Shown here one piece after another: positions 11,963 through 34,764 of a DNA stretch of 35,622 nt. Source of the DNA: a virus; IMG/VR virus record IMGVR_UViG_3300044972_001663, positions 1 to 35,622 of that record. The stretch is one strand, 5' to 3'. The notes under the pieces are model-generated. The model was not told the origin of the DNA. It saw only the letters and a program-made list of their open reading frames with translations, and did not search any database. The position numbers were made by a program, and so were the translations under genes. How positions within the stretch are numbered: the stretch's first letter is position 1; every line of letters begins with the position of its first letter.

Positions 11963-12225
11963 TTTTTGCTCTTTTTCTTTGAAGACTTTTCTTTCAAGAA
12001 GTTTGGCTGGAAAAGGTCTACAAAGTCGTGGTCTGCAATGTGACTGTCAAGCTTCCCAGCAATGTAGTCAACATCCTCATCTATGTCTCTAATCCCCTCT
12101 CTAAGGGCATCCAGACGCTCTTTAACGACTCCGTGGTCACGAGTGTTCTCACGACGACCCTTTTCAATTAGGAGCGCGAGAACGCTGAATGCGCCCGTTA
12201 CAGCGGCTGCCCAAACGATTTCCAT
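11959..12225 (-). CDS. small membrane protein next to endolysin, possible holin-like
   Basis: An 88-residue protein with one N-terminal membrane segment (IVWAAAVTGAFSVLALLIE), a charged helical or coiled-coil region (VVKERLDALREGIRDIDEDV) and a Lys/Ser-rich tail (KEKSSKKKSKK). Small size, a single membrane helix, a basic tail and its place directly after the endolysin (TAATG overlap) suit a holin or other lysis protein. It could also be an unrelated membrane protein. Confidence 0.55.
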   Translation of the reverse strand: MEIVWAAAVTGAFSVLALLIEKGRRENTRDHGVVKERLDALREGIRDIDEDVDYIAGKLDSHIADHDFVDLFQPNFLKEKSSKKKSKK

Positions 12226-12974
12226 TAAAGACCCAGCAATTCTTTTACTTTTGGACCGACAACGGAGTCAGCATTGAGTTTATTTGCAACCTTGAATGCT
12301 TTTACCGCCGCATCTGTCGCAGCATCTTTTAGACCATTGATTTCACCCTTGTAGAATCCCTTAGCCTTCAGAGCCTCTTGTAGGGCTTTGTGGTCGTGGA
12401 TAGGCGGTGTCGTGTTTAGGTTGACAACTGGAGCAGCACCACCAATAAATGCCATTACGGCTGGTGTTGGCTTGTCGCCAGTTACTAGTCGTAAATGCCA
12501 TGGCTCGCTTGGAACAACTTCCCAACTGAACCCAAAATCTTTGACGTTTGCAATGAGCCAGTTCAATCTCTTTGGTTCTGAGGCACTGGCAATATCGACA
12601 GCCAAACCGAGATTATGGTTTGACTTACCTGGTGTAGCCAGCATGGCCATGCCCTTTTTGAGGTACCAAGTTTTGCCTTCAAACGTCTTGGTACTGGTTC
12701 CGACTACTGGCTCTAGAACGTAGCGTTGTTTGAATCCAGCCAGTTGGCTCTCGTATGTGCGATATAAATCGCCGGAGCTCGTGGGTTTAAGTTCGATTCC
12801 ATCTGCTTTGGCTTTTGCAACCATTGCATTCCAAGCATCTGCAGCTCGGTGATGGAGTTTTCCTCCAGTTGGGATTGCTCTAAGCAACGCTTCGGGCAGT
12901 TTCCCAGGGGTAACCCCTTTTAGGTCAGCAGGCATAACCATTGGGACGATGTAATCCCACGCAACTTTACTCAT
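12225..12974 (-). CDS. endolysin: M15 peptidase with peptidoglycan-binding domain
   Basis: A 249-residue protein from the ATG preceded by AAAGGA. The catalytic domain is a VanY/L-Ala-D-Glu-type peptidase: SNHNLGLAVDIA supplies zinc ligands H120 and D127, and SEPWHLR supplies E157 and ligand H160. Residues about 195-249 look like a PG_binding_1 repeat (LQEALKAKGFYKGEINGLKD, then AFKVANKLNADSVVGPKVKE). It should cut peptide cross-links of host peptidoglycan at lysis. No signal peptide, so release needs a holin-type pore, probably the next gene. Confidence 0.9.
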   Translation of the reverse strand: MSKVAWDYIVPMVMPADLKGVTPGKLPEALLRAIPTGGKLHHRAADAWNAMVAKAKADGIELKPTSSGDLYRTYESQLAGFKQRYVLEPVVGTSTKTFEGKTWYLKKGMAMLATPGKSNHNLGLAVDIASASEPKRLNWLIANVKDFGFSWEVVPSEPWHLRLVTGDKPTPAVMAFIGGAAPVVNLNTTPPIHDHKALQEALKAKGFYKGEINGLKDAATDAAVKAFKVANKLNADSVVGPKVKELLGL

Positions 12975-13048
12975 GTCAGGTCCTTTGCAAAATGTGAACA
13001 AATGCGCGTAACACGAGCGCCGTAAAATCTTACAATATATAGGGCGTT

Positions 13049-13068: not shown

Positions 13069-16000
13069 TTACTCTCCGTCTGGCTCTTTCATATGGAGAT
13101 ACATGGATGCGGTGAAAGCAAGGACAGTTCCCCATAGGGCAATTTGTTGTGTTAATCCAGAGAGGGTGAAGTACATAACGGTGGCACCGGCAAGGGTGAA
13201 ACCAGATGCCATAACCCCATAAGCAAACTTTCTTGCGAAGTTCTTCCAGTCCATGATTCTTACTCCATCCTCATATTTGTAAATAGATATTCTCTTAATC
13301 CAATCAGGACCTTCGCCCTCGATTGCTCCACCCTCTTCTGTCTCTTCTTCTTCTCTCCGAGCCGCGACATCTTGTCGTGGTGCAGAAGGTGTAGAAGGTC
13401 CGGGGGTTGGTATTCCACCAGCAGCAGAGGCAAGAGCCACAGTGCTGGTCACCAAGTTTACAGCAATAACACTTCGTCTTGTACCAACATCTATGGAAGA
13501 ACCTACTGCGGTATATGTATCAAACACTCCGGCGAACACATTTATCTCTTCTTCAAATGATTCTTTAACATCGGTCGATGCCTCGGTGAGTGCTTCTGAA
13601 ATTGCAGCACCAGCTTCTTCTGAAACCTCAGAAACAACAATTGCATTAAACACTGCGGAAGCTTGTTCGCCGTCAATGCTTTCAAGAACCTTGGCGCTAG
13701 TTGCAAGTTCGATTGATTGGCCTGACTCAATGCCACCTTCTTGTTCGATTACTAACGTGACGACTTGTCCAACCTGCTCGCTCGTAATTGTGTCTGATTC
13801 CAACACATCTACGATGACTCCTACTGATTCTGCATCTAGTTCGTTACCCAAGACAGCGGTAAAGGTTTCAATCAAAACCTCGTTGCTCACTTCTTCGTCA
13901 AAGACCGAACCAAGAACAGCGTTCAATAATTCTGAGGTGAGTTCGTCAGCTAATACATCAACAATAAGTTCAATGGTTTCTGCATCCGAGAGGTCATCAT
14001 CAAACACACTGTCAAAGACTGCTTCTGTTTCTGACATGCTCAGGTTTGTTTCAAGCAAGTCCCCAAGAACCGTCATGGTGTCCGCAACTGAAATGTCCTC
14101 GTCAAACACGGCTGCCATAACTGTGTTCAGGTCGCCAGAACTAAGCGGACCATCAAAGATTGACACCAAAGCAGACACCATATTTTCGGCAGAAGTGTCT
14201 TCCGAGAATGCTGAATCCAAAACTGCCGTCAACTGTTCGCTAGTGATGTCTGCATCCAGCATCGTTGTCAGTGCTTCGGTGAATACATCTGCTGAAACAT
14301 CTTCGGTAAAGACGGCTTCTAGAACATTGTCAAACTGGGTGTCGGTAAGTTCTGCGCCAAGGAGTGTGTCAAGAACAGCGCCAACCTCGTCAGCCTCAAT
14401 ATCGGTAGTGAACGTATTTTCAAGAATATTGTCCAATATGACTGTCGTGATTGGCTCGTTGTCTTCTATGTCTGTGACGGTATAATCATCTGGTGGAATT
14501 ATTACTACTACCGTTTCGGTTTCTGTTGGGTCTATTCCAATTGGTTCTGAGTATTCTGGAATTGTCTCTGTTGGCAATTCAGTTTCTGTTCCTGTTCCTA
14601 TGGGAAGCGTCACCGTTGTGGATTCTGTTTCAGGCTCTGGCAATTGCGGCAGTGGCACTGTTGTATCGTCTGGGGGAGTCACGACGACAGGAACGACGGT
14701 CGTACTGGTCGTAGTTGTAGTAGTAGATGAAGTAGTTGTCGGGTCAAGAACAGTTGCATCAACGGTCACTTCAGGACCATAGGTGCAACTGCCAGTTCCA
14801 ACTCCAGCACACCCACCAGTCATCGCTTTGATACCAAAACGAACTGGTCCATACCCAGTCGTGACAGGATTACTTCCAGAGAACATCCCAGTGCTTAACG
14901 AATAGTTGGTTCCTTGATTAGTCCAAACTCCCCAGCCACCTGATTGTGCTCCACCGATTACTGTTAGGTCGTAGAAACTAACTGAGTAACCATAGATGAC
15001 GCAATTGCTTGCCGCCGATGCATCCCAATCAAGGTCAACACTTCCATCTGAGTTTGCAACAGCAGTCAAGTTTGTGACTGGATTGAGATAAGCCGCAGTA
15101 ATTGTGTTATTGGACTCTACATATCCAGAGCCTGAGAAATTGTTTGTGTTTTGCGCAGTAGTGCCAAATGTGTTCCCACTGGCTGTGGAGAACGAGTTCG
15201 CACTTACTCCGTTGTACACCGAAGAGCCGTTATTCCAATTGTTTGCAAACTGAATAGCAGTGGTGTTGCCGTTGAATGTATTACCTGAAACCGTTTGGTT
15301 ACCAGCGCCAACCGCCCAACTTGTCGGAATCCATGACGATAAGTACACGCCAACACCGTTTGAAGTAAATGTTGAATTTAGAACTTGCTGACGGTTGAGC
15401 CCTCCTAGATACGCACCAACCTGTGTGTTGCCTGTGAACTGACTGTTATTTATTTTAACAAAGCGCTCGGTACGAATGCCATAAGTATTTGATGTAAATG
15501 TAGAGCCATTGACATAAATACGATTTGAGTAATCAGTATCCGTAAGGCTCAGGGCTGTAGGTGTTCCGCCGTGGTCAGAGGTAATTGCATAACCGTTATT
15601 TGTAAATTGGGAATCATTGAATGTGGTAACTCCACCGCCGCCTTGGTAGAAAGCCCACGATGAATGATTGGAAATCTTTATCCGATTGAACGTCATTGTT
15701 CCGGAGGCGTTGTAAATCAGCCCACCGTTCCATGAAACATTTTTACCTTGCTTGAATGTGATGTCTTCAATAACAATTGTTCTTGAGCCATTGTTGTAAA
15801 TGGCTCGCCACAAATTATTGCCATCAATAATTGTCGTAGCCATTCCCGTGCCGGTGATTGTCACCCCAGCCGTAATGTTGGGCAAGTCGGAAGTGAGGGT
15901 GATTGTTCCTTCTGTGGTGATGTCAATGGCATCGTAAATCCCACCAGCATTTGCGTTGGCTTGATTGATTGCCCAGCGAAGAGTTCCGCTTGAACCATCA

Positions 16001-17052
16001 TCCAAGAGGCTTGTAACTTCAAGCGATGTTGAAGCGGGCACGGTAGTCGTCGTCGTTGTTGTCGTGGTAGTACTCGTAGTAGTCGTCTGAGCAACGGTCG
16101 TACTCGTAGTTGTAGTAGTCGGAGGAACAGTTGGAGCAGTTTCGCTATTTGAAGCAACTCCACCGAATGTGGTGCAAGTTCCAGAGATACAACGCTCTGT
16201 TGAGCCAGCCTCGCTATCAATCATCAGTACTGGAGAAAGTGCGGTATCTCCAAGGTTGAAGACAGCAAAACCAAGTTTGTATGTTCCGGTTATATCCACG
16301 CTGTATGTAGATGTTTGCCAACCAGTAGCACCATATGAATTTGTCGAATAGTCGCCAGTTCCTGGGTTGGTGAATCCAAGAAGGGCATATGACTGTACGT
16401 AATTGTTTACTCTGATAACTGGGGTTCCGGTAACGGTCACTGGCACAAGCCCGGTCACAGAACCGTCATTGAATGGAACATAGTCCGTTCCTAGGTAGTT
16501 CCAAGACATTGTGTAGGTAGTGCCAGCAGTTAGTTGTACTTCCCTAGTAATCCATGCCGCGTTTGTCGGATTGGAATTTCCATTCCCAGACGCAATCCCG
16601 TCTGCTGTCAACCGTTCTTGTATTGCTGTTTGTGGAGCACCAGACAACCCGAGTGCGGTCATTGCATTAGAGAATGTGACTGGGTTTACTGGTTGTAGGG
16701 CGACTGCTTTTGCCGCATTGTTTGGTCTAAATGTCCAACTTCCAGCAGCGACGGCTGGGGCGTAAGAAGGGCTAGATGGGTTTCCCACTGCTGGATGCGA
16801 ACCATGAGTAAATGTCCGAGAACCAGTAAAGATGGTTACGCCGGTTCCGTTGCCGGTAATGGTGTTGCCCAATGTTCCAGACTGGCTTCCCTTTTCCCAG
16901 CCCGTAAAGGTTCCGTCCTCAAATCCAGCATCAGGGAAAGAATCAGCCCGAACCGGCGAAGAGAAGCCAAAAATCGAGAGAAGAAGAAAGAACACCGAAG
17001 GTACAGCCATGACGGCTGCGGGTTTGTTAAAGCGACGACGACTACGGAACAT
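13069..17052 (-). CDS. very large secreted, membrane-anchored protein with beta-helix and Thr-rich linkers
   Basis: A 1327-residue protein. Residues 1-36 are a signal peptide with a basic start and cleavage near PVRA/DS. A jelly-roll-like region follows, then a Thr-rich linker (about 306-343), a right-handed beta-helix region (about 345-650, many NNS/GN turns), a fibronectin-III-like segment (about 665-760), a second Thr/Pro-rich stretch, then five or more roughly 34-residue repeats of the type VLDSVFDEDVS...LLDAELTSE, and finally two membrane segments near the C-terminus. It resembles actinobacterial surface proteins more than virion proteins. GGAGG precedes the ATG. It lies between lysis genes and tail genes. 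Possible roles are surface display, exclusion of other phages or tailspike; none is proven. Confidence 0.75.
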   Translation of the reverse strand: MFRSRRRFNKPAAVMAVPSVFFLLLSIFGFSSPVRADSFPDAGFEDGTFTGWEKGSQSGTLGNTITGNGTGVTIFTGSRTFTHGSHPAVGNPSSPSYAPAVAAGSWTFRPNNAAKAVALQPVNPVTFSNAMTALGLSGAPQTAIQERLTADGIASGNGNSNPTNAAWITREVQLTAGTTYTMSWNYLGTDYVPFNDGSVTGLVPVTVTGTPVIRVNNYVQSYALLGFTNPGTGDYSTNSYGATGWQTSTYSVDITGTYKLGFAVFNLGDTALSPVLMIDSEAGSTERCISGTCTTFGGVASNSETAPTVPPTTTTTSTTVAQTTTTSTTTTTTTTTTVPASTSLEVTSLLDDGSSGTLRWAINQANANAGGIYDAIDITTEGTITLTSDLPNITAGVTITGTGMATTIIDGNNLWRAIYNNGSRTIVIEDITFKQGKNVSWNGGLIYNASGTMTFNRIKISNHSSWAFYQGGGGVTTFNDSQFTNNGYAITSDHGGTPTALSLTDTDYSNRIYVNGSTFTSNTYGIRTERFVKINNSQFTGNTQVGAYLGGLNRQQVLNSTFTSNGVGVYLSSWIPTSWAVGAGNQTVSGNTFNGNTTAIQFANNWNNGSSVYNGVSANSFSTASGNTFGTTAQNTNNFSGSGYVESNNTITAAYLNPVTNLTAVANSDGSVDLDWDASAASNCVIYGYSVSFYDLTVIGGAQSGGWGVWTNQGTNYSLSTGMFSGSNPVTTGYGPVRFGIKAMTGGCAGVGTGSCTYGPEVTVDATVLDPTTTSSTTTTTTSTTVVPVVVTPPDDTTVPLPQLPEPETESTTVTLPIGTGTETELPTETIPEYSEPIGIDPTETETVVVIIPPDDYTVTDIEDNEPITTVILDNILENTFTTDIEADEVGAVLDTLLGAELTDTQFDNVLEAVFTEDVSADVFTEALTTMLDADITSEQLTAVLDSAFSEDTSAENMVSALVSIFDGPLSSGDLNTVMAAVFDEDISVADTMTVLGDLLETNLSMSETEAVFDSVFDDDLSDAETIELIVDVLADELTSELLNAVLGSVFDEEVSNEVLIETFTAVLGNELDAESVGVIVDVLESDTITSEQVGQVVTLVIEQEGGIESGQSIELATSAKVLESIDGEQASAVFNAIVVSEVSEEAGAAISEALTEASTDVKESFEEEINVFAGVFDTYTAVGSSIDVGTRRSVIAVNLVTSTVALASAAGGIPTPGPSTPSAPRQDVAARREEEETEEGGAIEGEGPDWIKRISIYKYEDGVRIMDWKNFARKFAYGVMASGFTLAGATVMYFTLSGLTQQIALWGTVLAFTASMYLHMKEPDGE

Positions 17053-19930: not shown

Positions 19931-22093
19931 ATGATTTCCGTTCCGGTAGCTTCAAACGATATTGCATTTCGTAACCAGTTAAGCATATTCTGGGACAACC
20001 ACAAATTAATATACGGAGATGATGCTTACAAAAAAGCACATGCAATAATCGTCTCTCAAAACTCTCCTGAACAAAACAAAATTAAAGACGGAGAGTGGGG
20101 GCTTGATATTCCGTTAACGGTAGTTGAACCATATTGGTCGCATCTGCAAAGAGAACACTCCCGAGTGCTTCTGCCAATAAACATTCAATCAGGACTGTCT
20201 CAGATAATAAACAATTTTGACGACGATGAATTGTTGGAACTAATTGACTGCGACATGTTTCATATCAAGGCATATGAGGAACAGGAAATTAACGAAGACG
20301 AATTTTTAGTATGCGACATATATGAAGACTGGCACCTAAAAAGCAAGAGTGACCTATATGGGGTTATAGAGAATTTTTTAGATAAAGACCAGTCAGCCTA
20401 CAATGGCGGATTTGTTCCAATTATTGGTTATGTAAAAACATTTAAGAAAATTCTAAAATACTGGACAGATGTGCATTTGCAGATATTTGATTCCACTGAC
20501 GATACACGCATTCAGTGGTGGTCGGGCATGTACTCACTTCAAGTCGCCTGCGCTAACAACGGCATAAAGATGAAGGCAATTGATAATTGCTATATACCAA
20601 GTTTGAACGAGTTAAAAGACAATCACCATATAGCCCATTACTGCTGCGATACCGTATTCTCCAAAAATAAAGAACTCAGAAAACCGGACAAATTTGATTA
20701 CACGGGTTTTCCAAGCAGCTATTTCTATGACCAAATAAAAAACTGGATGAAGAAAATGAACTCGACGAAAAATGACGGTAAAATATTATTTCAACTTCCT
20801 GAACCACTAGTTGAAAAACCTCTTTGTGTTGAGTCTTTCTTTAGTGAAGAAATGCTTGTAAGGGTTAAGGATTCAGTCAAGGATACGGGGGTTGGTACGG
20901 ACAGGGTCCAGTTCCATACCATGCAGGGAAGATGGTATGCCCAGATTGGGTTTGATGAAGATATTGAGGATTTCATTCTTAATAGGGCAAGAACGATATT
21001 TAATGACGAGTCTCTGCAGAAGTCTTATTTTCTTGCAGCCAGATACCAGCGTAAAGATGGATGTATTCCACACCTATGGGAGCACGTTGACCAAAATGGA
21101 ACACAATTAACGCTTGATATAGCCATTGATAATTCGGCGAACTGGGGTCTTGTTGTTGAAGGTGAGTATTTTGAGCAAAAACCAAATGATGCAATTGCAT
21201 TCTGCGGTCAACAGCACACACATGGTAGGCCGCCATATCCAACCATCGACGAAGAAGTGTTTACTACAGTGTTGTTTTTACATTTCACCCAGCCAGAACA
21301 CTGGATACAAAAAGATAGAAATTTAATGAACACCTACAGCAGGGATGGAGTCGTAAGATTCTTTAACCGCAATCGATACTTTCCGCTACCTGATACACCA
21401 ATCAATCAGCCTGTATGTAGTTGCTGTGATTTCTCTGGGGTATTAAATTTCTACGATGAAATTACTGGACATAGAATGGATGAACCATCAGAGACTGTTG
21501 ATATGTCGGTAACAGGTAAAATCGAATTGGCCCCTGGAATAATGAAATACACAATCCCAAAAGAATCAGCACGCATTTTAAAAGGCTTGATACAAAACTC
21601 CATGTTGAAGCAGTGGCAACCAGCAGAGGTTTATAGCAAGAATGACAAGGCAGAGGTTGACCAAAACGCAAGAAATTGCTACAACTACTTCATTAGTGAA
21701 AAGGAATTAAGCTGTCACCCACAAGACCCAATAAGGCGAGCTGCAGAGTCGCTCAAAAGTGGTCTTGATGGAATTGTTGAGGACTTCAGGTCAAGGTATT
21801 CCATAGTTCCACTAAAATCACATCACACTGTCTTGCTTCGCTACGAAGAGGGTAACAAGTTCAGCAACCATATTGATGCCCACCCAGAATTCCCTAGAGT
21901 TGTATCTGTTTCAATGTTCTTAAATGATGACTTTGAGGGTGGAGATTTAGAGTTCAAAGAGTTTGGTGTAAAAATCAAACCAGATGCTGGTGACGTGATT
22001 GTGTTCTGCTCATCGTTCCCATATATGCATCAGGTTCATCCGGTGGAAATAGGTATTCGCTATGCAGTTGTCAAGTGGTACCAGTGGACCTAG
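19931..22093 (+). CDS. three-domain protein: glycosyltransferase-like plus two 2-oxoglutarate/Fe(II) oxygenase domains
   Basis: A 720-residue protein. Residues 1-275 look like a GT-A fold: LPINIQSGLSQIINN, the DxD-type LIDCDMF (DCD at 106-108), YNGGFVPIIG (158-166) and a WWSGMYSLQVA segment (196-206) resembling peptidyl hydroxyproline/serine glycosyltransferases. Residues about 290-465 form a first oxygenase domain with H385-x-D387 and QQHTHGR near 427-433, ending HFTQPEHW. Residues about 530-720 form a prolyl-4-hydroxylase-type domain with H647-x-D649, a distal His at 700 or 703 and R710. The combination would allow hydroxylation then glycosylation of the same target. Domain assignments are by motif; the glycosyltransferase call is the least certain. 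Confidence 0.75.
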   Translation: MISVPVASNDIAFRNQLSIFWDNHKLIYGDDAYKKAHAIIVSQNSPEQNKIKDGEWGLDIPLTVVEPYWSHLQREHSRVLLPINIQSGLSQIINNFDDDELLELIDCDMFHIKAYEEQEINEDEFLVCDIYEDWHLKSKSDLYGVIENFLDKDQSAYNGGFVPIIGYVKTFKKILKYWTDVHLQIFDSTDDTRIQWWSGMYSLQVACANNGIKMKAIDNCYIPSLNELKDNHHIAHYCCDTVFSKNKELRKPDKFDYTGFPSSYFYDQIKNWMKKMNSTKNDGKILFQLPEPLVEKPLCVESFFSEEMLVRVKDSVKDTGVGTDRVQFHTMQGRWYAQIGFDEDIEDFILNRARTIFNDESLQKSYFLAARYQRKDGCIPHLWEHVDQNGTQLTLDIAIDNSANWGLVVEGEYFEQKPNDAIAFCGQQHTHGRPPYPTIDEEVFTTVLFLHFTQPEHWIQKDRNLMNTYSRDGVVRFFNRNRYFPLPDTPINQPVCSCCDFSGVLNFYDEITGHRMDEPSETVDMSVTGKIELAPGIMKYTIPKESARILKGLIQNSMLKQWQPAEVYSKNDKAEVDQNARNCYNYFISEKELSCHPQDPIRRAAESLKSGLDGIVEDFRSRYSIVPLKSHHTVLLRYEEGNKFSNHIDAHPEFPRVVSVSMFLNDDFEGGDLEFKEFGVKIKPDAGDVIVFCSSFPYMHQVHPVEIGIRYAVVKWYQWT

Positions 22094-22939: not shown

Positions 22940-23371
22940 ATGTCCATGGAAAATCAAAATCAAGATTACTGGATTAAAAGAGGCTTTGAATTAAATGTTC
23001 CATCTTGGGAAGAAGTGATACACAACTTCAATCAAAGCGTAATCAGGCAATACCCCATAGTTCATTTTCCTCTTGGTTTTTTTCACTCCCTAGATGGGCA
23101 TGAAATAGATACGGTTAAGCCGGTTCTGGAAAAACTCAAACTAACGGTTGCTCATGTTTATTTCAATGTGTCAGTTGATGCAAGTGGATTTGGTATGCAC
23201 GTTGACCCTGTGGATGTCTGGTATTGGCAGGCATGTGGAACAACAGTCTGGGAGATAGATGGCGGCCCAACATGGGAACTCAGTCCTGGGGACTTAGTTT
23301 TTATCCGTGCTTGGGTGGGACATCGCTCTACTGCGTTGACTCCTCGCATTGGGTTGTCAATGTCTCTTTAG
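22940..23371 (+). CDS. cupin/2OG-Fe(II) oxygenase-like protein, 143 aa
   Basis: A 143-residue protein with GGAGG before the ATG. The C-terminal half is a double-stranded beta-helix: GFGMHVDPVD gives the metal ligands H87 and D89, and RAWVGHRS gives H128. The spacing and WELSPGDLVFI segment fit JmjC-type or cupin 2-oxoglutarate oxygenases. It is short, so a partner or simple substrate is likely. The next gene converges on its 3' end and overlaps it. Confidence 0.65.
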   Translation: MSMENQNQDYWIKRGFELNVPSWEEVIHNFNQSVIRQYPIVHFPLGFFHSLDGHEIDTVKPVLEKLKLTVAHVYFNVSVDASGFGMHVDPVDVWYWQACGTTVWEIDGGPTWELSPGDLVFIRAWVGHRSTALTPRIGLSMSL

Positions 23372-23999
23372 CAAGCAATTGTTCTTCTTCTATTTTTTTC
23401 ATAATATTTGGGTGCATTTGGTCAAAGTTGAAAGCAATCACAGTTTTCCTATTGGCTGACAGGAACGCGGCAGACCTGTGTATTAGCTGCGCTGGAAAAA
23501 TAACAATGTCACCCTCTTCAGCCGTAAATGAAAAAAGCTTCTGAGTGAATGGCTCAATATATTCGGTAATATGTGATTCGATTGGGGTTTCAAGAAAATA
23601 AATTCCAGCCCAATTACAACCGCAGTGTGGGTGCCATTGATGATGGTCTTTTGTATTGTACTGCTGGAACCATATGGAATTAATTTCTGGTAAATGCCAT
23701 CCGAGTTGATTGGGCATGGTAGATAAAACATTCATAATTTTTGGAGTTACAAAATCAACCCACGGTCTATTGGTGACAGTATCGACCATTAGGTAATCAT
23801 ATTTTGTTATGCGCTGATATCGGTCGTCTGGCTTCGTGACCGTAGTATCAACTCTTTCAACGCGTTCAATCATGTCTAGGATTATTTGTTTATTTTCGTA
23901 GTGGTACGGCATCTTTCTTACGAAGTACTGCATTACAAGCGGGAAGACCTTTGTGTCGTTATCTAACATATTTGTTTTCAGCACCTTCCAATTTCCCAT
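23328..23999 (-). CDS. 2-oxoglutarate/Fe(II) oxygenase-like protein (phage type)
   Basis: A 223-residue protein. QQYNTKDHHQWHPHCGC (H123/H125), then FTAEEGDIVIFPAQLIHRSA (H174) and NRKTVIAFNFD (R184) form the double-stranded beta-helix core found in many phage oxygenases that use an H-x-H or H-x-D ligand pair. GGAG precedes the ATG. It overlaps the upstream oxygenase gene by 41 bases, so the two are co-translated. The substrate is unknown. Confidence 0.75.
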   Translation of the reverse strand: MGNWKVLKTNMLDNDTKVFPLVMQYFVRKMPYHYENKQIILDMIERVERVDTTVTKPDDRYQRITKYDYLMVDTVTNRPWVDFVTPKIMNVLSTMPNQLGWHLPEINSIWFQQYNTKDHHQWHPHCGCNWAGIYFLETPIESHITEYIEPFTQKLFSFTAEEGDIVIFPAQLIHRSAAFLSANRKTVIAFNFDQMHPNIMKKIEEEQLLAKETLTTQCEESTQ

Positions 24000-24597
24000 A
24001 CTTCTCCAGTAGGGGTAATTCCCTCAAAAGCCTAGCGTCGTGATTTGACTCATTTTCTTCGGATTTCAAATGAGGTTTTCTAAAAAACCAATGTTCAGGT
24101 TCGGCAAAATGGAAAAAAATCATATGGACAAAACTCATCGGATTCCTGCTAGGGAAAACCTCTCTCCAGTGAAGGTCATTTTCTCCATCGTAAACAACTG
24201 CCCAATTATCCTTCAAGGTGAATGCCTCACCGTTGACGTATAGTGGCCAATCAACATTGGACGACAACTGAAGGTCAATTGTGTAACTACAAGCATTGTC
24301 GTCTAGGTGGGCGGGAAGATTTGGAAGTGGGTTCAAGAACCCTGAGTATTTTGCGCTTTTTATATAAGACTGCTTGGCGGTTTTGGAAAAATTATCAGAG
24401 GCAAGTTCATATAACCGGTCGTGCATTTCGTCGGGAAGAATTATTGGGCTGTCATCCTCCCTCTCCCCGTTTGATGGCCTGATGCTTGATGTGTAACGAC
24501 CGTGCTTTTTATCTATCACTCTCTGAGAAGAATTGATTTGTTCAATAATTAGTGACAACTGTTCCGCAGTGAACACATCTTTGATTACGTGTGCCAT
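23959..24597 (-). CDS. 2-oxoglutarate/Fe(II) oxygenase-like protein
   Basis: A 212-residue protein. Key residues are LPAHLDDN (H97, D99), DLHWREV (H143, R145) and the ending FFHFAEPEHWFF. The same layout, including the HF..PEHW end, appears in the middle domain of the 720-residue protein at 19931, so the two are homologous. GGAGCGAAG precedes the ATG. It is the third gene of the minus-strand cluster. Confidence 0.7.
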   Translation of the reverse strand: MAHVIKDVFTAEQLSLIIEQINSSQRVIDKKHGRYTSSIRPSNGEREDDSPIILPDEMHDRLYELASDNFSKTAKQSYIKSAKYSGFLNPLPNLPAHLDDNACSYTIDLQLSSNVDWPLYVNGEAFTLKDNWAVVYDGENDLHWREVFPSRNPMSFVHMIFFHFAEPEHWFFRKPHLKSEENESNHDARLLRELPLLEKYGKLEGAENKYVR

Positions 24598-24625: not shown

Positions 24626-25333
24626 CTATTCCCCAACAACTGTTGGTTCAACTTGATTCATGTCTTTATTCGGTAGAAGGTATGGGGAGTACGGCTCTGG
24701 TGTATCGCACATTATGAATGTACTGATAATCCACTTGTCGCTGGAGATTGGCACGGCCCCACAGTGTGGGTGTGTCCAATTGGCTGGGAACAGGGCAATG
24801 TCTCCAGCATTTGCTTTAACCCGAACCTCGTTGTCTGGAAAGATTGTTTCGCCACCAATATCAACCGTATTCAGGTACAGAATCGCCCCAAGGACCCTTG
24901 ATGTAGATTGACCGCCCGTCCAGACGTCGCCATCAATATGCACCCTGTAATACCCTTGTCCCTTTTCATATTTTTGAAGTCTCCACCCAGTGTGTTTCGG
25001 GTTTGGTGCAGTTCTGAGAAATGGGTACTCCTCTAGGTAGAGAGATAGCGCCGCATTGACGGCACTATCAACCTCGCTCTCAATTTTCATAAACGTGCTG
25101 TGCTGCGGAAGATTCAGTGGGGCTATGGTGTCATATGAATAGCTGAAATCAGATGTGTGTTTTATAATTTTTTGAACACCACCCAGTGTTGGTCCTGGGT
25201 AGAAAAGTTTGTCAAAAGAATCCCTGCATGCATCAACCAGTTGACTGCAGGATTCGCTACTTAGCATTGATTTGGCAACAGCAATGTGCGAACCCCTACC
25301 TGCTGGAAACTCTAATAAATGAAAGTTTGACAT
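24626..25333 (-). CDS. prolyl-4-hydroxylase-type 2OG/Fe(II) oxygenase
   Basis: A 235-residue protein with all elements of a P4H-type domain: WRLQKYEKGQGYYRVHIDGD (H132, D134), LGAILYLN, GGETIFP, NAGDIALFPANWTHPHCG (H188 or H190) and K200 for 2-oxoglutarate binding. It overlaps the upstream gene by one base. Of the free-standing enzymes it is the closest to collagen-type prolyl hydroxylases. Confidence 0.8.
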   Translation of the reverse strand: MSNFHLLEFPAGRGSHIAVAKSMLSSESCSQLVDACRDSFDKLFYPGPTLGGVQKIIKHTSDFSYSYDTIAPLNLPQHSTFMKIESEVDSAVNAALSLYLEEYPFLRTAPNPKHTGWRLQKYEKGQGYYRVHIDGDVWTGGQSTSRVLGAILYLNTVDIGGETIFPDNEVRVKANAGDIALFPANWTHPHCGAVPISSDKWIISTFIMCDTPEPYSPYLLPNKDMNQVEPTVVGE

Positions 25334-25752
25334 TATCCCTTTTCTACCATAAATTCATGAGTCTCAATCTCCTTGTCTTTGTGCTTTACAATTATCTTGT
25401 ATAGCCCTTCTGATTTCGGGAGAATAGCAAACCTCAATGTTCTTTTGTCTTGAATCATCGTTGTGATTTTTGTTTCTTTGTCCTTGTAGAAAACAAATAA
25501 ATCAATATCGCTAGACGGAATTATGTCATTAGAATAATATGCCATAAAAGATGAGTCAACAATTAACTCATGGTCGGGCAAAAGCATTACTGGCTGTTCT
25601 GGGATGAGGAGCAGTCCAACCTTCGTTCGGTCAAAATCAACATCTTTTGCTATCTCGGCGTAACCAAGCATAATTGGAACTACGAACTCTGTTGACAACG
25701 CAGTTGCCTCAGGGAGCATGGATTCGTCTGGGCAATATATATACCTAAGCAT
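25333..25752 (-). CDS. hypothetical protein, 139 aa
   Basis: A 139-residue beta-rich protein (MLRYIYCPDESMLPEATALS...). It lies between an unknown phage family and the prolyl hydroxylase, in one operon with tight overlaps. The C-terminal half (LRFAILPKSEGLYKIIVKHK) looks like an immunoglobulin-like or beta-sandwich fold. No family recognised. Confidence 0.6.
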   Translation of the reverse strand: MLRYIYCPDESMLPEATALSTEFVVPIMLGYAEIAKDVDFDRTKVGLLLIPEQPVMLLPDHELIVDSSFMAYYSNDIIPSSDIDLFVFYKDKETKITTMIQDKRTLRFAILPKSEGLYKIIVKHKDKEIETHEFMVEKG

Positions 25753-25755
25753 CTT

Positions 25756-26616
25756 CTACTCCAAACTCTTGTCTATCGCGTGCTGTTCCTTTTTATACTT
25801 GCCTTCCCATTTCTCTTCTCTAAACACGGCATCAAATCCAAGGTTGTCTAAAATTTTATGCATACCTTCGTCGCCCTTTAGGAGTGATGATTTTTTAATA
25901 ATTTGTGAGCGCTTAAATGGAATCACGTGCAACAAGGGTGTCCCTGCCTCCACATTAAAACCGTTTGCTGTTTTTATATTGAAGACCACATTGCAATGAT
26001 GGTACGAGTCCGTATTGACAACTCCAGCTAAGATGTCGTAGTCGTTATTTGGTTCCCACTGGGGCTGTATGAAAAGACAAGACCAACCCGGAGCGGTTTT
26101 AAGCAACCACGGATTTGTTAGTTTGAGGTAGTCGCTATCTGGGCGACCCTTAACATCCCTGATTGGGCATTCACCAGTTTGCCTGTTCGCAAACTGTTGC
26201 CCTTGAACAACTTCCTGACTAAATATACGATGCTTATCCATGAACTCAGGAGGATTGTCATGTATAGCCTCACTTGCAGCGGAAGATTGCCTGTATGTCG
26301 TGTAACGTGCATACCACTTAGACTCAAGTTTTGAAACTGGCGGACGCACTTCAAGTCCTGCCCATAATGGAATCGTATAACCCATTCTCATATAGTCACC
26401 AAGGCCGTAGCATCCACGTAAACCCATGTCGCCAGCAAGTATGTTTTTGTACCAATCTGGAGTTTTTCTGTTATTTGCGTAAATCGCTATCCTTGGGTGC
26501 CATAACTCGTTGGCAATTGGCACGGCAAGAAGTTCTCCTTCTTTAGGCGTTCTAATATCCTCAAATATTTCTGCTTTTTGAAGCGAACTCTTAAACTTTT
26601 TTGAAAATAGACGCAT
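25756..26616 (-). CDS. conserved phage protein, DUF6065-like
   Basis: A 286-residue protein with the pattern LTNPWLLKTAPGWSCLFIQP, then ILAGVVNTDSYHHCNVVFNI and EAGTPLLHVIPFKR, which I recognise from a conserved family in cyanophages and bacteria (DUF6065-like). It overlaps the end of the halogenase gene by 26 bases. AAAGGTGAT precedes the ATG. Function unknown; the association with halogenase and oxygenases suggests a shared pathway. Confidence 0.55.
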   Translation of the reverse strand: MRLFSKKFKSSLQKAEIFEDIRTPKEGELLAVPIANELWHPRIAIYANNRKTPDWYKNILAGDMGLRGCYGLGDYMRMGYTIPLWAGLEVRPPVSKLESKWYARYTTYRQSSAASEAIHDNPPEFMDKHRIFSQEVVQGQQFANRQTGECPIRDVKGRPDSDYLKLTNPWLLKTAPGWSCLFIQPQWEPNNDYDILAGVVNTDSYHHCNVVFNIKTANGFNVEAGTPLLHVIPFKRSQIIKKSSLLKGDEGMHKILDNLGFDAVFREEKWEGKYKKEQHAIDKSLE

Positions 26617-28063
26617 GTGGTATCACCTTTGTTTTCATACGGTCGATGGACAACTCGGAGAAATGCTCTTTCATTTCCTTTCTTGAAGCATATGCCTCTA
26701 TTTCCATGGTCGCAACTTCCCTGTTGAGGACTCCCTGTCCTTGTGCAACATGCCAAAAGTGGGGTGATGCAAACAATTCATAACCGCCATGATTAAAAAT
26801 TGGTATGTCAAAATCATGTGGTGTGCGTTCTTGCCAAAGGTCAAGGAGTTCTTGGAGGGAGTCCGGTATTTGTGCAGATTTTTGTGCAATCCACATCTCG
26901 GAGTCGTCCCTGTCAGAAATATAATGCAAGGCAATCATACACAGGGCATTATTCATCAGAGCCTCAAACCTCTTGTGATACTGCGTAATCATTGCTTTTG
27001 ATTCAGGTGTAATTGTCGGTATTAGCGAGCAAATCATTTTTGCTTGAATAATTGAGGTAGAAATTGATGTTGCTTCTAGCGGCTCAATAAAAGCAGAGGA
27101 CAAACCAGTACATACAACATTTTTGAATAGTTGCGTTTTGTAGTGTCCTGATTTCCATTTAATGATTCGCGGCTCAATATGGTCACCGTGTATTTCCTGT
27201 ATTTCCTTCACGGCCTGTTCGTCTGAACAGAAGTCGGATGAATAGATATAACCATTGCCACGGCGCTCTTGGGTTGGTATCTCAAACATCCAACCACTTG
27301 GCATCGCTCTTGCCCTTGTGTATGGATGTATATTCCCATCTTCTTGGCTTGGTGTAGGGAATACAGCAGAACTGTCGCACGGGAGGTACTTCCGGTAATT
27401 AACAAATTCGTCATCTGGAAGAATGCGTGACATTATCGCTCTGTGGAACCCAGTTGCATCCACGAAGAAATCGCCAGCAATGTTTCTTTCTCCGTCAAGT
27501 TTGATTGATTCAAGCCAGCCGGTTTCCGAATTTTGAACTACATCAACAATTTCACCCTCAATAAATCTGATTCCTCGTCTTGCACCAAGATTTCTGAGAT
27601 ATTCATTTAATTTGAATGTATCAAAATGGAATTGGTTGGTGAGATTATGTATTTCGTTTAATGGTCTGTCTATAATCATGTCATCAAGCAGTCGATGCGA
27701 AGTCACGTTCGTTAGCAACATGTTATTTTCTAGGGCGTAAGCATAATTCCCAGAATATCCATAAACAGTTTTTTGTCCTAATGCAATGCTATGGAAATAG
27801 TACGGGGTGTGTTTTGTCCAATTTTCGTAATAGATTCCGTACTTATGAGTTGCCTTGGTCGCCGTAACCATTTCACCCTTGTTCATGCCAAGGGAATCGC
27901 AAAATTGTCGCCAATGCTCAGTCGAGCCCTCTCCAACACCGATGATTCCAATTTTTGAAGAAGATACAACGGTTACTTTGTGGTGTGGTAAGGCGTGATT
28001 TAGGGTTAATGCCGTTATCAAACCAGCAGTCCCCGAACCGCAAACAATTATCTCTTTATTCAT
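26591..28063 (-). CDS. flavin-dependent tryptophan-type halogenase
   Basis: A 490-residue protein. FAD-binding GSGTAG is at 9-14, GVGEGSTEHW at 42-51, and the catalytic lysine equivalent is K74 in ATHKYGIYYENW. The family motif WxWxIP appears as WMFEIP at 258-263, with Phe in place of the second Trp. FIEPLEATSIS contains the conserved Glu region. It should use reduced FAD, oxygen and halide to halogenate an aromatic or indole substrate. A phage halogenase is known from cyanophage (VirX1). The start is two bases after the preceding stop, so it is coupled. No flavin reductase is seen in the window, so a host one would be needed. Confidence 0.85.
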   Translation of the reverse strand: MNKEIIVCGSGTAGLITALTLNHALPHHKVTVVSSSKIGIIGVGEGSTEHWRQFCDSLGMNKGEMVTATKATHKYGIYYENWTKHTPYYFHSIALGQKTVYGYSGNYAYALENNMLLTNVTSHRLLDDMIIDRPLNEIHNLTNQFHFDTFKLNEYLRNLGARRGIRFIEGEIVDVVQNSETGWLESIKLDGERNIAGDFFVDATGFHRAIMSRILPDDEFVNYRKYLPCDSSAVFPTPSQEDGNIHPYTRARAMPSGWMFEIPTQERRGNGYIYSSDFCSDEQAVKEIQEIHGDHIEPRIIKWKSGHYKTQLFKNVVCTGLSSAFIEPLEATSISTSIIQAKMICSLIPTITPESKAMITQYHKRFEALMNNALCMIALHYISDRDDSEMWIAQKSAQIPDSLQELLDLWQERTPHDFDIPIFNHGGYELFASPHFWHVAQGQGVLNREVATMEIEAYASRKEMKEHFSELSIDRMKTKVIPHASIFKKV

Positions 28064-28065
28064 GG

Positions 28066-28671
28066 TCAGCTAAACCAGGTGACCATCGAGTATTTAATCT
28101 CTTCGCTATTTTCGCCTGTTGGTTTTGCATAGTGATAAAAAGGAAAGTTTGAAGGGAATATAACAACGCTTCCCGCTACGGGCTTTAATTCGATATCCAA
28201 AAATGGAAAAACTAATTCTCCACCGTCAGTAACATCATTCATAAAAGCAACAACACTAAAAACCCTTGAGTTGTCTGGGTGGTGGTCTACGTGTCCTTTG
28301 TATTCTGCTCCACGACCGTACTTGAGCAAACCCCAACCATCGTTCTTTGATACCTGAATATTAAATGTGTTTCTGTAGTTCCAGACACATTCTTCAAGTT
28401 TCTTGTTAATGGACTGCATTTCCTCAATAAGAGGCTTAAGTCTTTCTACTTGACATTCTTCAAGTGGGACATAAAGCGGATTTAAACTTACAACCAAATT
28501 TGACCTGTAGTCACTTATGGTGTGGTCTTTGTCCCCGCCAGTAGATGCCCTGTTCCACTGTAGATAGCCCCAGTCTTGCTTGGTTTCTTCTTCAACCAAT
28601 GGAATGAATCTTGGGTTTCTAAATGCAGATTTGTATTCGTGTATGAATTGACCGTGCTCAATTATTTCCAT
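28066..28671 (-). CDS. prolyl-4-hydroxylase-type 2OG/Fe(II) oxygenase
   Basis: A 201-residue protein with LLKYGRGAEYKGHVDHHPDN (H127, D129), VAFMNDVTDGGELVFPFLDI, KPVAGSVVIFPSNFPFYHYA (H180) and a distal K193. It is close in layout to the C-terminal domain of the 720-residue protein. It is the first gene of the minus-strand enzyme operon and lies directly downstream of the collagen-like tail gene, with the halogenase following. Confidence 0.8.
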   Translation of the reverse strand: MEIIEHGQFIHEYKSAFRNPRFIPLVEEETKQDWGYLQWNRASTGGDKDHTISDYRSNLVVSLNPLYVPLEECQVERLKPLIEEMQSINKKLEECVWNYRNTFNIQVSKNDGWGLLKYGRGAEYKGHVDHHPDNSRVFSVVAFMNDVTDGGELVFPFLDIELKPVAGSVVIFPSNFPFYHYAKPTGENSEEIKYSMVTWFS

Positions 28672-28713: not shown

Positions 28714-30132
28714 TTAGTCTATATCTGCGATTACTGTTGATGTAGAGACTGATGCTGTGACTTCTTGTCCCAGAACGATAACGGCACCAACTTGACCAGT
28801 TGCACCCGTTTCGCCTGCCGCTCCTGGGTTTCCTGGATTTCCTGTTCCAGCGGCTCCACCTGGGACTGTTGCATTGTGCCCTGCTGGGTTGATTCCAGTC
28901 GTATTTGGGTTTGCTTGATGGGTGTGACCATTTACCGCCGCATTGTGTCCTTGGGTATGAGGGGTCGGATGGGTATTATGACTGGCGGCGGTATGAATAT
29001 GGTGGAAAGTCGGATGCGTATGCTGGTTCCCAAGATGGTGAGCAGGCTGTTGTCTTGCGGCATTATGACCTGGGTTACCTGGGTGGTGATGGGAATAAGG
29101 GTTTCCAGGGGTATGGTGCGCCCCTCTATGGGCTGCAGGTCGTCCTTTAGCAGCAGAAGTATGGTGTGCACCAACATGAGCGCCAGAGTGTGTTGCCGTA
29201 CCATGACTTCCTGGATTATGAAATGGGTTTCCGGGGGCGTGGAAGTGATACGGCGTAGCAATGTTATGTGCGATTCCATAAGCAGGGTTTGTGGCCGCCG
29301 CAATATGGGATGCTCCATCTGGGTTCGCTTGGTGAAATGGAGATGCTGCAGTATGTGTCGGAACTTCTGTGTGCGGATTTATGTGTGAAAAAGGATTTCC
29401 AGGGTGGCTTGTTCCTGGCGATGTAGAACCTGTATTTCCGCTGGTTCCAGCATTTCCTGGGTTTCCTGGGTTGCCAGCAGTACCGACCGTTCCTTCGGAA
29501 ACAAATGTTCCTGAGCCAGTCACTATCTTCGCTAAGACCACGACCATTCCGCCGCCTTGACCACCAGCGCCGCCGGTTCCACCCGTTCCTGCTGTTCCTG
29601 CTGTTCCTGGGTTTCCAGGCGTTGCTGGTGCCGTTCCTGCTCCGCCGGGATTTGCTGAACCAGCATTACCAGCAGCACCAGAGGCGCCAGATGCACCTAC
29701 TGCGCCAGCATAAATTTTCTGAAGTTCTCCGCCAACAAGTCTGGAGCCAGATATCAACTCGTCAAAGTTTGTAATTTGTGAAGCAGTGATTGAACCGCCA
29801 ATAGCATTTGCTGAATTGTACGAAATGTTTCCGTCGTTTCGGGTAAGAACCGTTCCACCCAAAACAGAAGTCGTTTGAGATGTTCCAGAAGGCATTCCTA
29901 TAGTTCCATTGTTTGTCAATGTTTCCTTGACAAAAATCTTAAATCCGTTGGTGAAAAGTGTTGCGCCTGAGTTTACGGTGAGATTTGTGAAGTAATAGTC
30001 TCGGGTCAAGAAGTTGACTCCGCTTGCATAGATGATGTTTCCATCTAAACCGTTACCAAAGAGTTTATTTAATTTGGCCTGATAAGCATCCGTTGTTGGG
30101 CTTAGGAGACCGCTGATTTTTTGAAAGGCCAT
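28714..30132 (-). CDS. collagen-like, histidine-rich tail protein
   Basis: A 472-residue protein from an ATG three bases after the preceding stop; the frame is open further but that part is an artefact of the neighbouring gene. Residues 1-140 are a beta-rich domain similar to the gene upstream (FTNLTVNSGATLFTNGFKIF). Residues 140-240 are Gly-rich and collagen-like with NPG units. Residues about 243-428 hold some 36 histidines with HPGNP, HHHPGNPG and TPGNPY motifs, an unusual His-rich domain. A last collagen-like stretch (GTGNPGNPGAAGETGATGQ) leads to the C-terminus. NPG units are candidate sites for prolyl hydroxylation by the adjacent enzymes. Histidines may bind metal ions, as in some phage fibre tips. 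Confidence 0.75.
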   Translation of the reverse strand: MAFQKISGLLSPTTDAYQAKLNKLFGNGLDGNIIYASGVNFLTRDYYFTNLTVNSGATLFTNGFKIFVKETLTNNGTIGMPSGTSQTTSVLGGTVLTRNDGNISYNSANAIGGSITASQITNFDELISGSRLVGGELQKIYAGAVGASGASGAAGNAGSANPGGAGTAPATPGNPGTAGTAGTGGTGGAGGQGGGMVVVLAKIVTGSGTFVSEGTVGTAGNPGNPGNAGTSGNTGSTSPGTSHPGNPFSHINPHTEVPTHTAASPFHQANPDGASHIAAATNPAYGIAHNIATPYHFHAPGNPFHNPGSHGTATHSGAHVGAHHTSAAKGRPAAHRGAHHTPGNPYSHHHPGNPGHNAARQQPAHHLGNQHTHPTFHHIHTAASHNTHPTPHTQGHNAAVNGHTHQANPNTTGINPAGHNATVPGGAAGTGNPGNPGAAGETGATGQVGAVIVLGQEVTASVSTSTVIADID

Positions 30133-30134
30133 GA

Positions 30135-30878
30135 TTACCCGACTTGCAAATAGATTGACGTCCCAGCGGCGCAACCAGTAGAACCCGCCACCTCGACTGT
30201 TATTCCCGACTGTAGCACATTGCCAGAAGAGATGATAATAACCACCCCACCACCGCCGCCGTTTACAAGACTGGGTGTTGCTTTTGCAGAAATGAATGAG
30301 GTTGACGTTGAGCAGGATATATACCTTGCTGCAATAATTACGACTCCTCCACCCTCGCCACCAGTAGCAGAACCACCAGCACCGCCACGTAGAAATGTCG
30401 GGGTTGTAGAAGTCGCAGAAACAGCCCATCCACGAACCGCCTGCATGGCGTGATAATAATAGTTAGTCCCACCTAATGCTGCCGTTGGCGCAGTTGCTGT
30501 TTGTGTTGCAGAAGCCCCACCAAGACTGTGGGTAACGCTGGTGTTTAATGCACCACCCTGCGCAATGGAGCCAGATGTTGCAAAACCCACAACATATCCG
30601 ATTCTCGCACCTGCACCAAGGGTTAATGTGTCTTTAACGAATATTCTGTAACCATTCGGGTTGAGTGTGATTCCATCATTAATCGTGAGATTGGTGTACT
30701 GCTTGTCTGACGACAGAGACGTGTTTGATGAGATGGTTACCGAACCATCAATACCAGAACCGTAAATTGGGTCAGGCGTATTTAGGAGCGCGACAGATTT
30801 GGTAAACGAGTCAGATAGCGATGAAGTTCCCTCCGCTGAGGAAACTGTCGTTCTGTTCAAGCGAACAAACGACGGCAT
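30135..30878 (-). CDS. tail-fibre protein with Gly-rich C-terminus
   Basis: A 247-residue protein. Residues about 30-110 share a domain with the next gene (YTNLTINDGITLNPNGYRIF against FTNLTVNSGATLFTNGFKIF), implying gene duplication. The C-terminal half has Gly-rich loops (GGAGGSATGGEGGGVVIIAA, NGGGGGVVIIIS), as in glycine-rich adhesin tips. It shares one base with the gene before it. Confidence 0.7.
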   Translation of the reverse strand: MPSFVRLNRTTVSSAEGTSSLSDSFTKSVALLNTPDPIYGSGIDGSVTISSNTSLSSDKQYTNLTINDGITLNPNGYRIFVKDTLTLGAGARIGYVVGFATSGSIAQGGALNTSVTHSLGGASATQTATAPTAALGGTNYYYHAMQAVRGWAVSATSTTPTFLRGGAGGSATGGEGGGVVIIAARYISCSTSTSFISAKATPSLVNGGGGGVVIIISSGNVLQSGITVEVAGSTGCAAGTSIYLQVG

Positions 30879-34456: not shown

Positions 34457-34764
34457 TATGCAATCTCCATTCCAGAGATATGGAACTTAAGGCTTGATGC
34501 CGTTGTCGCTCCGCCAGTAATCGTGTCTGTTGCTACCAAAACCTGCTTGAGGTCAAATGTGACGATTCCTCTTGCATCAATGCCGATTTGGGAGCAGTAT
34601 TCATGACCATCAAGGCTGATGCTGAACGTTGTGGCATTATCCGAGGCATTAGTTACGGCAATGTTGGTGACAACCGTTGAGGTCGCCGACGGAACCGTGT
34701 AAAGAACGGTTGCGAGGTTGGTTGTAGCAGTACCCCTAAAAAGAACTTTTGCTGTATTAGCCAC
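34456..34764 (-). CDS. small tail protein, 102 aa
   Basis: A 102-residue protein with a GTG start and GGAG seven bases upstream. It is a paralogue of the 120-residue protein at 30878 (TVLYTVPSATSTVVTNIAVT). It lies between the fibre gene at the window edge and the large structural gene. Confidence 0.65.
   Translation of the reverse strand: MANTAKVLFRGTATTNLATVLYTVPSATSTVVTNIAVTNASDNATTFSISLDGHEYCSQIGIDARGIVTFDLKQVLVATDTITGGATTASSLKFHISGMEIA

Follow-up and report, generated by a model that had tools for sequence, protein, structure and literature searches.

The DNA analysed here, which we call the window, is a 35,622-nucleotide stretch of viral sequence. From position 34764 to 23328 it holds a tight block of genes on a single strand, neighbours being separated by −41 to +42 nt. 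In the direction of reading, the block encodes a short paralog of a fibre, a histidine-rich fibre, a prolyl-4-hydroxylase-like (P4H-like) 2OG-Fe(II) oxygenase, a flavin-dependent halogenase, a DUF6065-like protein, a protein of unknown family and three further 2OG-type proteins. The features considered are the following.

30135–30878, minus strand: paralog of the fibre, 247 residues, sharing its N-terminal module and Gly-rich arms but lacking the His loop; PHROG 13336
28714–30132, minus strand: predicted His-rich tail-fibre adhesin, 472 residues, start at 30132 and stop at 28714
29887–30075, minus strand: N-terminal β-strand module of the fibre, residues ~20–82, from alignments; pLDDT mostly 86–96; common to the short paralog and all relatives
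29407–29712, minus strand: proximal Gly-rich arm, residues 141–242, with interrupted Gly-X-Y and GNPG units; pLDDT 81–96
28876–29406, minus strand: His-rich loop, residues 243–419, with all 36 histidines; pLDDT mostly 33–43 over residues 255–417
28768–28872, minus strand: distal Gly-rich arm and last strand, residues 421–455, from sequence; pLDDT mostly 81–95
28066–28671, minus strand: P4H-like 2OG-Fe(II) oxygenase, PF13640; triad H127, D129, H180
26591–28063, minus strand: flavin-dependent halogenase of the tryptophan halogenase family, PF04820, with active-site motifs; PDB matches are halogenases including VirX1
25756–26616, minus strand: DUF6065-like/phrog_7084 protein, weak Pfam match
25333–25752, minus strand: small cluster protein, no family assigned; relatives recur at the same place
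24626–25333, minus strand: second 2OG-Fe(II) oxygenase, PF13640; H132, D134, H190 conserved
23959–24597, minus strand: 2OG-like protein, phrog_2954, labelled 'ferrochelatase', probably in error; H97, D99, H163/H169 conserved (HxD...H)
23328–23999, minus strand: third 2OG-Fe(II) oxygenase (2OG-FeII_Oxy_5), PF13759; TIGR02466 weak
22940–23371, plus strand, convergent: JmjC_2/cupin protein, possibly a further oxygenase; PF08007 partial, 27 bits against a cut-off of 22
19931–22093, plus strand: 720-residue fusion of hydroxyproline O-arabinosyltransferase-like (HPAT-like; PF23452, residues 136–248), 2OG-like (phrog_2954) and C-terminal 2OG-Fe(II) (PF13640, residues 635–718) domains

The fibre contains 36 histidines, the first at residue 243 and the last at residue 419, with none elsewhere in the 472 residues. 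Residues 243–428 are 19.4% His, which bears out the first-pass annotation of about 36 histidines in this region and a share of one-fifth. The NPG and HPGNP units that it listed are also present, together with GNP. Histidine accounts for 2.2% of the remaining coding sequence of the gene block, and at this rate the probability of 36 in 177 residues is about 4 × 10−24, so that chance is excluded. Both His codons are in use (20 CAT and 16 CAC) and the segment is therefore not a simple DNA repeat. It has few acidic or basic residues. The repeats on either side had been described as collagen-like, a term that suits the Gly-rich flanks since they carry interrupted Gly-X-Y, in short and broken runs. 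From the His segment itself Gly-X-Y runs are absent, and a periodicity analysis found no clear Gly period of three in it. Profile searches of Pfam, PHROG, NCBIfam and the PDB gave no match from which the fibre could be named.

A model of the fibre was obtained with AlphaFold2 from an alignment of 34 sequences. Both Gly-rich arms are predicted without helix, with pLDDT values of 81–96. Given the low pLDDT of the His segment and the confident arms on either side, the segment is, in this model, one giant unpredicted loop. The equivalent position of the paralog is occupied by a short Gly-rich loop. The earlier description, a tail protein whose tip region is rich in histidine, is supported.

The arrangement is reminiscent of the gp38 adhesins, in which hypervariable loops lie between Gly-rich motifs on a polyglycine sandwich at the tip of the fibre (PMC6851490, PMC12892980). 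In gp38 of the T-even phages (Salmonella phage S16, PDB 6F45; PP01), as in the fibre, a β-structured part carries a Gly-rich scaffold, and a variable segment is placed between conserved Gly-rich flanks. In the fibre this segment varies in length and in some pairs is locally exchanged. The gp38 adhesins have five short loops, whereas the fibre has one giant His-rich loop and an attached enzyme cluster. Pfam, PHROG, NCBIfam and PDB profiles detect no sequence homology to gp38, and a PDB fold search with the fibre returned nothing, gp38 included, at E values up to 1. Since neither sequence nor fold ties the two together, we claim that the fibre works like gp38 and not that it is a member; the analogy suggests a protein built like the gp38 adhesins and not recognizably homologous to them. 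The BFVD fold matches, to collagen-like proteins from giant viruses and from uncultured phages, superposed poorly and were rejected. A further likeness is to collagen-like proteins and their prolyl 4-hydroxylases (animal collagen, Bacillus anthracis P4H), which share with this locus Gly-X-Y sequence with X-Pro-Gly beside a P4H-like gene. Unlike collagen, the fibre has Gly-X-Y runs that are broken and that are missing from the His loop, and the module here includes a halogenase.

Relatives were sought in viral contigs, which are fragments, by searching with the fibre, the fibre alignment and the N-terminal module, with up to 80 loci taken from each search. A segment was considered His-rich if it contained an 80-residue stretch with at least 12% His. 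Among the loci listed, all from uncultured viruses, such a segment is present in 103 of 108 unique long fibres with the module, against 21 of 1,911 other open reading frames (ORFs). The His-rich region thus recurs in related phages, a comparison that the first-pass annotation had called for. At least 12 of the 21 other ORFs resemble tail-collar proteins. Separate His-rich proteins of this collar type are found at L169:15381–17462, L170:7853–9904, L081:12630–13649 and L085:2625–3590; the collar domain was confirmed in the L169 protein, and tail-collar PHROGs match the L081 protein. The mean segment composition of 57 non-redundant fibres is 22% His, 13% Gly, 10% Asn, 9% Ala and 9% Pro, with GHNP, HNPG, HPAG and HNAG as recurrent units, and the richest stretch reaches 47% His. 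Segment length varies widely between relatives and the flanks are conserved. A tblastn search of cultured phages with the fibre, the paralog and two diverse relatives gave no match, and the part of the literature searched held no paper on a phage fibre that is both His-rich and collagen-like, or on a halogenase that modifies fibres.

The His segment is under purifying selection. In 26 close pairs its dN/dS is mostly 0.03–0.4 where computable, well below 1. Histidine is the best-retained residue (0.91), followed by Gly and Pro (0.88 each) and then the others; the sequence turns over fast yet keeps its histidines. Synonymous divergence of the segment calculated with NG86 was elevated and was rechecked at four-fold sites, because two-fold codons can inflate NG86 dS; the excess is clear in some pairs only. 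In those, the jump at four-fold sites is confined to the segment. For example, the divergence between L151 and L153 is 7% before the segment, 41% inside it and 0% after it. Such a restricted jump is the pattern expected from exchange of the tip by recombination.

The product of 28066–28671 matches PF13640 above the cut-off, and each residue of its triad is at least 90% conserved in 60 homologs. Among PDB entries its profile finds prolyl 4-hydroxylases and nothing else, bacterial and human, a lead that suggests a putative prolyl 4-hydroxylase. In the halogenase, G9, G11 and G14 (GxGxxG), K74 and E327/E330 are invariant in the alignment or at least 90% conserved, and by analogy K74 and E327/E330 would be the catalytic residues. 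VirX1 of cyanophage Syn10 (PDB 6QGM), an enzyme that iodinates many heterocycles (PMC8407142), belongs to the same viral flavin halogenase family (E = 7.5e-31). It is distant from the window halogenase and is not the nearest solved structure, and in the stretches examined the cyanophage halogenases do not lie beside His-rich fibres. QhpG is a halogenase-like flavoprotein that acts on protein residues (PMC7876137). The window halogenase weakly matches the profiles of QhpG, LodB and GoxB, which share this fold, although the matches fall far below the family cut-offs and the substrates differ.

The DUF6065 score of the 25756–26616 product is 17 bits, under the curated cut-off of 26.6, and the match is also weak in nine of its 11 relatives, with a best E value of 0.0011. 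A model of this protein (pLDDT 58) was too weak for a fold to be assigned, and faint dUTPase-like matches were set aside. A phrog_7084 relative occurs near an adhesin in haloarchaeal tailed viruses, where the stretch examined has no annotated halogenase or 2OG gene. The JmjC_2 family, to which the convergent gene is partially matched, includes ribosomal oxygenases, some of which hydroxylate histidine, which would be notable beside a His-rich fibre. In the fusion protein the HPAT match scores 27.5 bits against a cut-off of 23.9 and is partial (129–252 of 307). This domain has no sequence match in the PDB and is absent from 37 other records, so that the window is the sole case among 38. The layout of the fusion recalls the glycosyltransferase/hydroxylase fusions of collagen maturation.

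The first-pass annotation placed six probable iron enzymes next to the fibre. Domain assignments come close to this: 28066–28671, 24626–25333 and 23328–23999 fall in Pfam 2OG-Fe families, 23959–24597 keeps an HxD...H motif, and 19931–22093 carries a second, 2OG-like domain beside its Pfam 2OG domain; the large enzyme at 26591–28063 is a flavin halogenase and not an iron enzyme. The PHROG labels 'ferrochelatase' and 'DNA endonuclease V' (families 274, 2954 and 3531; window 23328–24597) are probably mislabels, because the proteins so labelled carry 2OG-Fe(II) features, and the error propagates in phage annotation. Elsewhere in the window, 12225–13001 (minus strand) encodes a VanY and peptidoglycan-binding endolysin, and 13069–17052 (minus strand) a protein of 1,327 residues with a weak β-helix match. 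A test with the T4 capsid profile PF07068 was uninformative, as no control gave a match.

Fibre and enzymes are linked across viruses. The halogenase and the DUF6065-like protein lie beside 56 of the 57 non-redundant fibres, the remaining one being cut by a contig end, and the P4H-like enzyme lies beside 54. In 51 cases the hydroxylase, halogenase and DUF6065-like genes are all downstream on the same strand, at median distances of 0.6, 1.7 and 3.2 kb, respectively. Three of the other six lack the hydroxylase, one is cut off, one has the enzymes upstream and one has them on the other strand. The link persists through rearrangement in L037, L115, L121, L237 and L274, with further rearrangements of the locus in L037, L237 and L274, and this persistence argues for a shared function. 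Searches made in the opposite direction agree. Starting from the hydroxylase, a His-rich ORF is found in 74 of the 77 loci listed, the three misses being contig ends. Starting from the halogenase, the figure is 69 of the 79 loci listed, which is slightly generous since in a few loci (L086, L094) the sole His-rich ORF counted is of the collar type and lies next to a contig end. Five of the ten misses are contig ends; in L069, L071, L073, L076 and L082 a halogenase is present without such a fibre, so this fibre would not be its only substrate. At L073:6189–12595, L076:4413–13226 and L082:4427–13225 halogenase and 2OG-type genes are neighbours of fibre-like proteins that are unrelated and rich in Gly or in Cys/Tyr. 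The pairing of enzymes and fibres may be wider than the His family.

We then compared enzyme content with the composition of the segment. Three lineages, separate on the halogenase tree, have no member of the hydroxylase family. Segment Pro in these is 1.4% in L102, 0.0% in L108, where only another 2OG type is present, and 4.6–5.7% in L109/L110. Fibres with the hydroxylase have a median of 8.1% and a minimum of 4.4%. Each lineage without it has less segment Pro than its sisters; for example, L112, the sister of L110, has the hydroxylase and 10.9% Pro. The contrast gives P = 0.0009, a value that rests on three lineages and is uncorrected for kinship. These lineages keep the halogenase and 30–39% His. 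Conversely, the insert of L287 has 1% His and 10% Pro, with hydroxylases present and no halogenase in the whole record, and that of L269 has 1% His, with neither hydroxylase nor halogenase on its contig. All enzymes are retained in L237, L274 and L283, although the insert there has only 4–5% His, and these exceptions make the rule strong but not absolute. A low His value for L164 was disregarded as the automatic finder had misplaced the insert. Two side observations concern these loci. The L287 record (G038:C215) has many 2OG-profile matches on a 25-kb contig, and the adjoining fibre insert is rich in Cys, Pro and Asp. L281 and L283 (MAG G015) are sibling phage contigs whose genes run in the same order; the insert is His-rich in one and aromatic-rich in the other.

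Several explanations of the His segment can be considered. It is highly improbable that it is a neutral, drifting low-complexity spacer: AlphaFold2 leaves it unfolded and its length is widely variable, but the low dN/dS, the conservation of His above all other residues and a His richness that persists through sequence turnover in 103 of 108 fibres all speak against drift. The first-pass annotation suggested metal load or release as the link between the tip and the iron enzymes. Metal binding by a polyhistidine stretch is chemically plausible. A loop that coordinated iron, zinc or another metal, either stiffening the tip or exploiting metal or siderophore receptors as a 'Ferrojan horse', with the enzymes unrelated, would be consistent with 36 histidines among few charged residues in 177 and with the retention of His. 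T4 gp37, which also has many histidines at a fibre tip, is known to hold iron at HxH sites, and such sites are predicted in an Alteromonas phage fibre (PMC11705849). This is not the situation in the present fibre, where HxH occurs five times against 7.1 expected in shuffled segments, and the spacing-2 ratio over 57 fibres is 0.89. HxH is thus not enriched, and the segment has neither a fixed His spacing nor a predicted ordered fold. The complete catalytic triads of the 2OG enzymes explain their iron as catalytic, and the halogenase next door is a flavoenzyme. In addition, the hydroxylase tracks segment Pro, and no halogenase accompanies the inserts that lack His. A meaningful association with the oxygenases nearby, seen again in dozens of viruses, is supported; nothing found here supports metal load or release as its nature, and we regard a metal-loading tip as quite unlikely.

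Alternatively, the tip may be exchangeable and unmodified, with the His loop binding its receptor directly (for example anionic glycans, in a pH-dependent manner) and the enzymes being auxiliary functions that act on host metabolites or DNA and share a late operon or insertion hotspot. In many cyanophages, 2OG oxygenases and halogenases are encoded at a distance from fibres of this kind, and 2-oxoglutarate signalling or DNA repair has been proposed (PMC3037559). Against this, the linkage is near-complete through rearrangement and enzyme content tracks tip composition, and we consider this explanation rather unlikely. The reading that we prefer, to which we give a little less than an even chance as a whole, is that the linked enzymes modify an exchangeable, receptor-contacting adhesin tip after translation. 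The β-strand N-terminal module would carry a rigid Gly-rich scaffold, polyglycine-II or collagen-like, from which the large His/Gly/Asn/Pro-rich loop would project as the distal tip of the tail fibre. Enzymes presumably co-transcribed with the fibre would then act on the tip. The P4H-like enzyme would hydroxylate Pro in Gly/Asn/Pro motifs; in this phage, a sugar may then be added to the hydroxyproline by the fused glycosyltransferase/2OG protein; and the aromatic rings, which make up much of the tip and are chiefly imidazoles of His, would be the target of the flavin halogenase. Host binding would be determined by the tip so modified.

This reading draws on the gp38-like arms and loop, the fast turnover with His kept, the local exchange, the contiguity of the genes and a linkage that withstands rearrangement. 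It also draws on the restriction of the PDB matches to prolyl 4-hydroxylases, the contrasts of Pro with hydroxylase and of His with halogenase, the HPAT-like/2OG fusion and the precedent of QhpG. Against it, genes of a late operon may also stay linked through common descent alone, low His goes together with all enzymes in L237, L274 and L283, and five halogenase contigs lack the fibre. Furthermore, the HPAT match is partial and confined to the window, the Pro contrast comes from three lineages and there is no gp38 match. The parts of the proposal differ in strength. Sequence anatomy, its conservation, the selection that keeps His and the gene linkage are observed, whereas the position at the tip, co-transcription, the pairing of enzyme with substrate and the role in receptor binding are inferred. 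That the His segment is an exchangeable adhesin tip we consider likely; whether any of the linked enzymes acts on it is evenly balanced; and a halogenase acting specifically on His is a tentative suggestion that we would sooner doubt than expect.

Aquatic phages encode many 2OG-Fe(II) oxygenases and tryptophan-type halogenases, for whose cellular roles metabolism or DNA repair has been put forward (PMC3037559). A near-complete linkage to one fibre family, kept through rearrangement, and an enzyme content that matches the composition of the tip indicate a specific substrate, and the question becomes testable with a few recombinant proteins. The widest form of the proposal, which is possible though on balance doubtful, is a widespread and undescribed system by which phages alter the chemistry of the tip that binds their receptor, installing hydroxyproline, in some cases sugar, and halogenated His or other aromatics on it. 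If true, a viral flavin halogenase would have a protein as its natural substrate, bacteriophages would have their own equivalent of collagen or extensin maturation, and chemistry would gain peptide halogenases and hydroxylases, and it would mean that phages tune host recognition by chemical modification of their adhesins.
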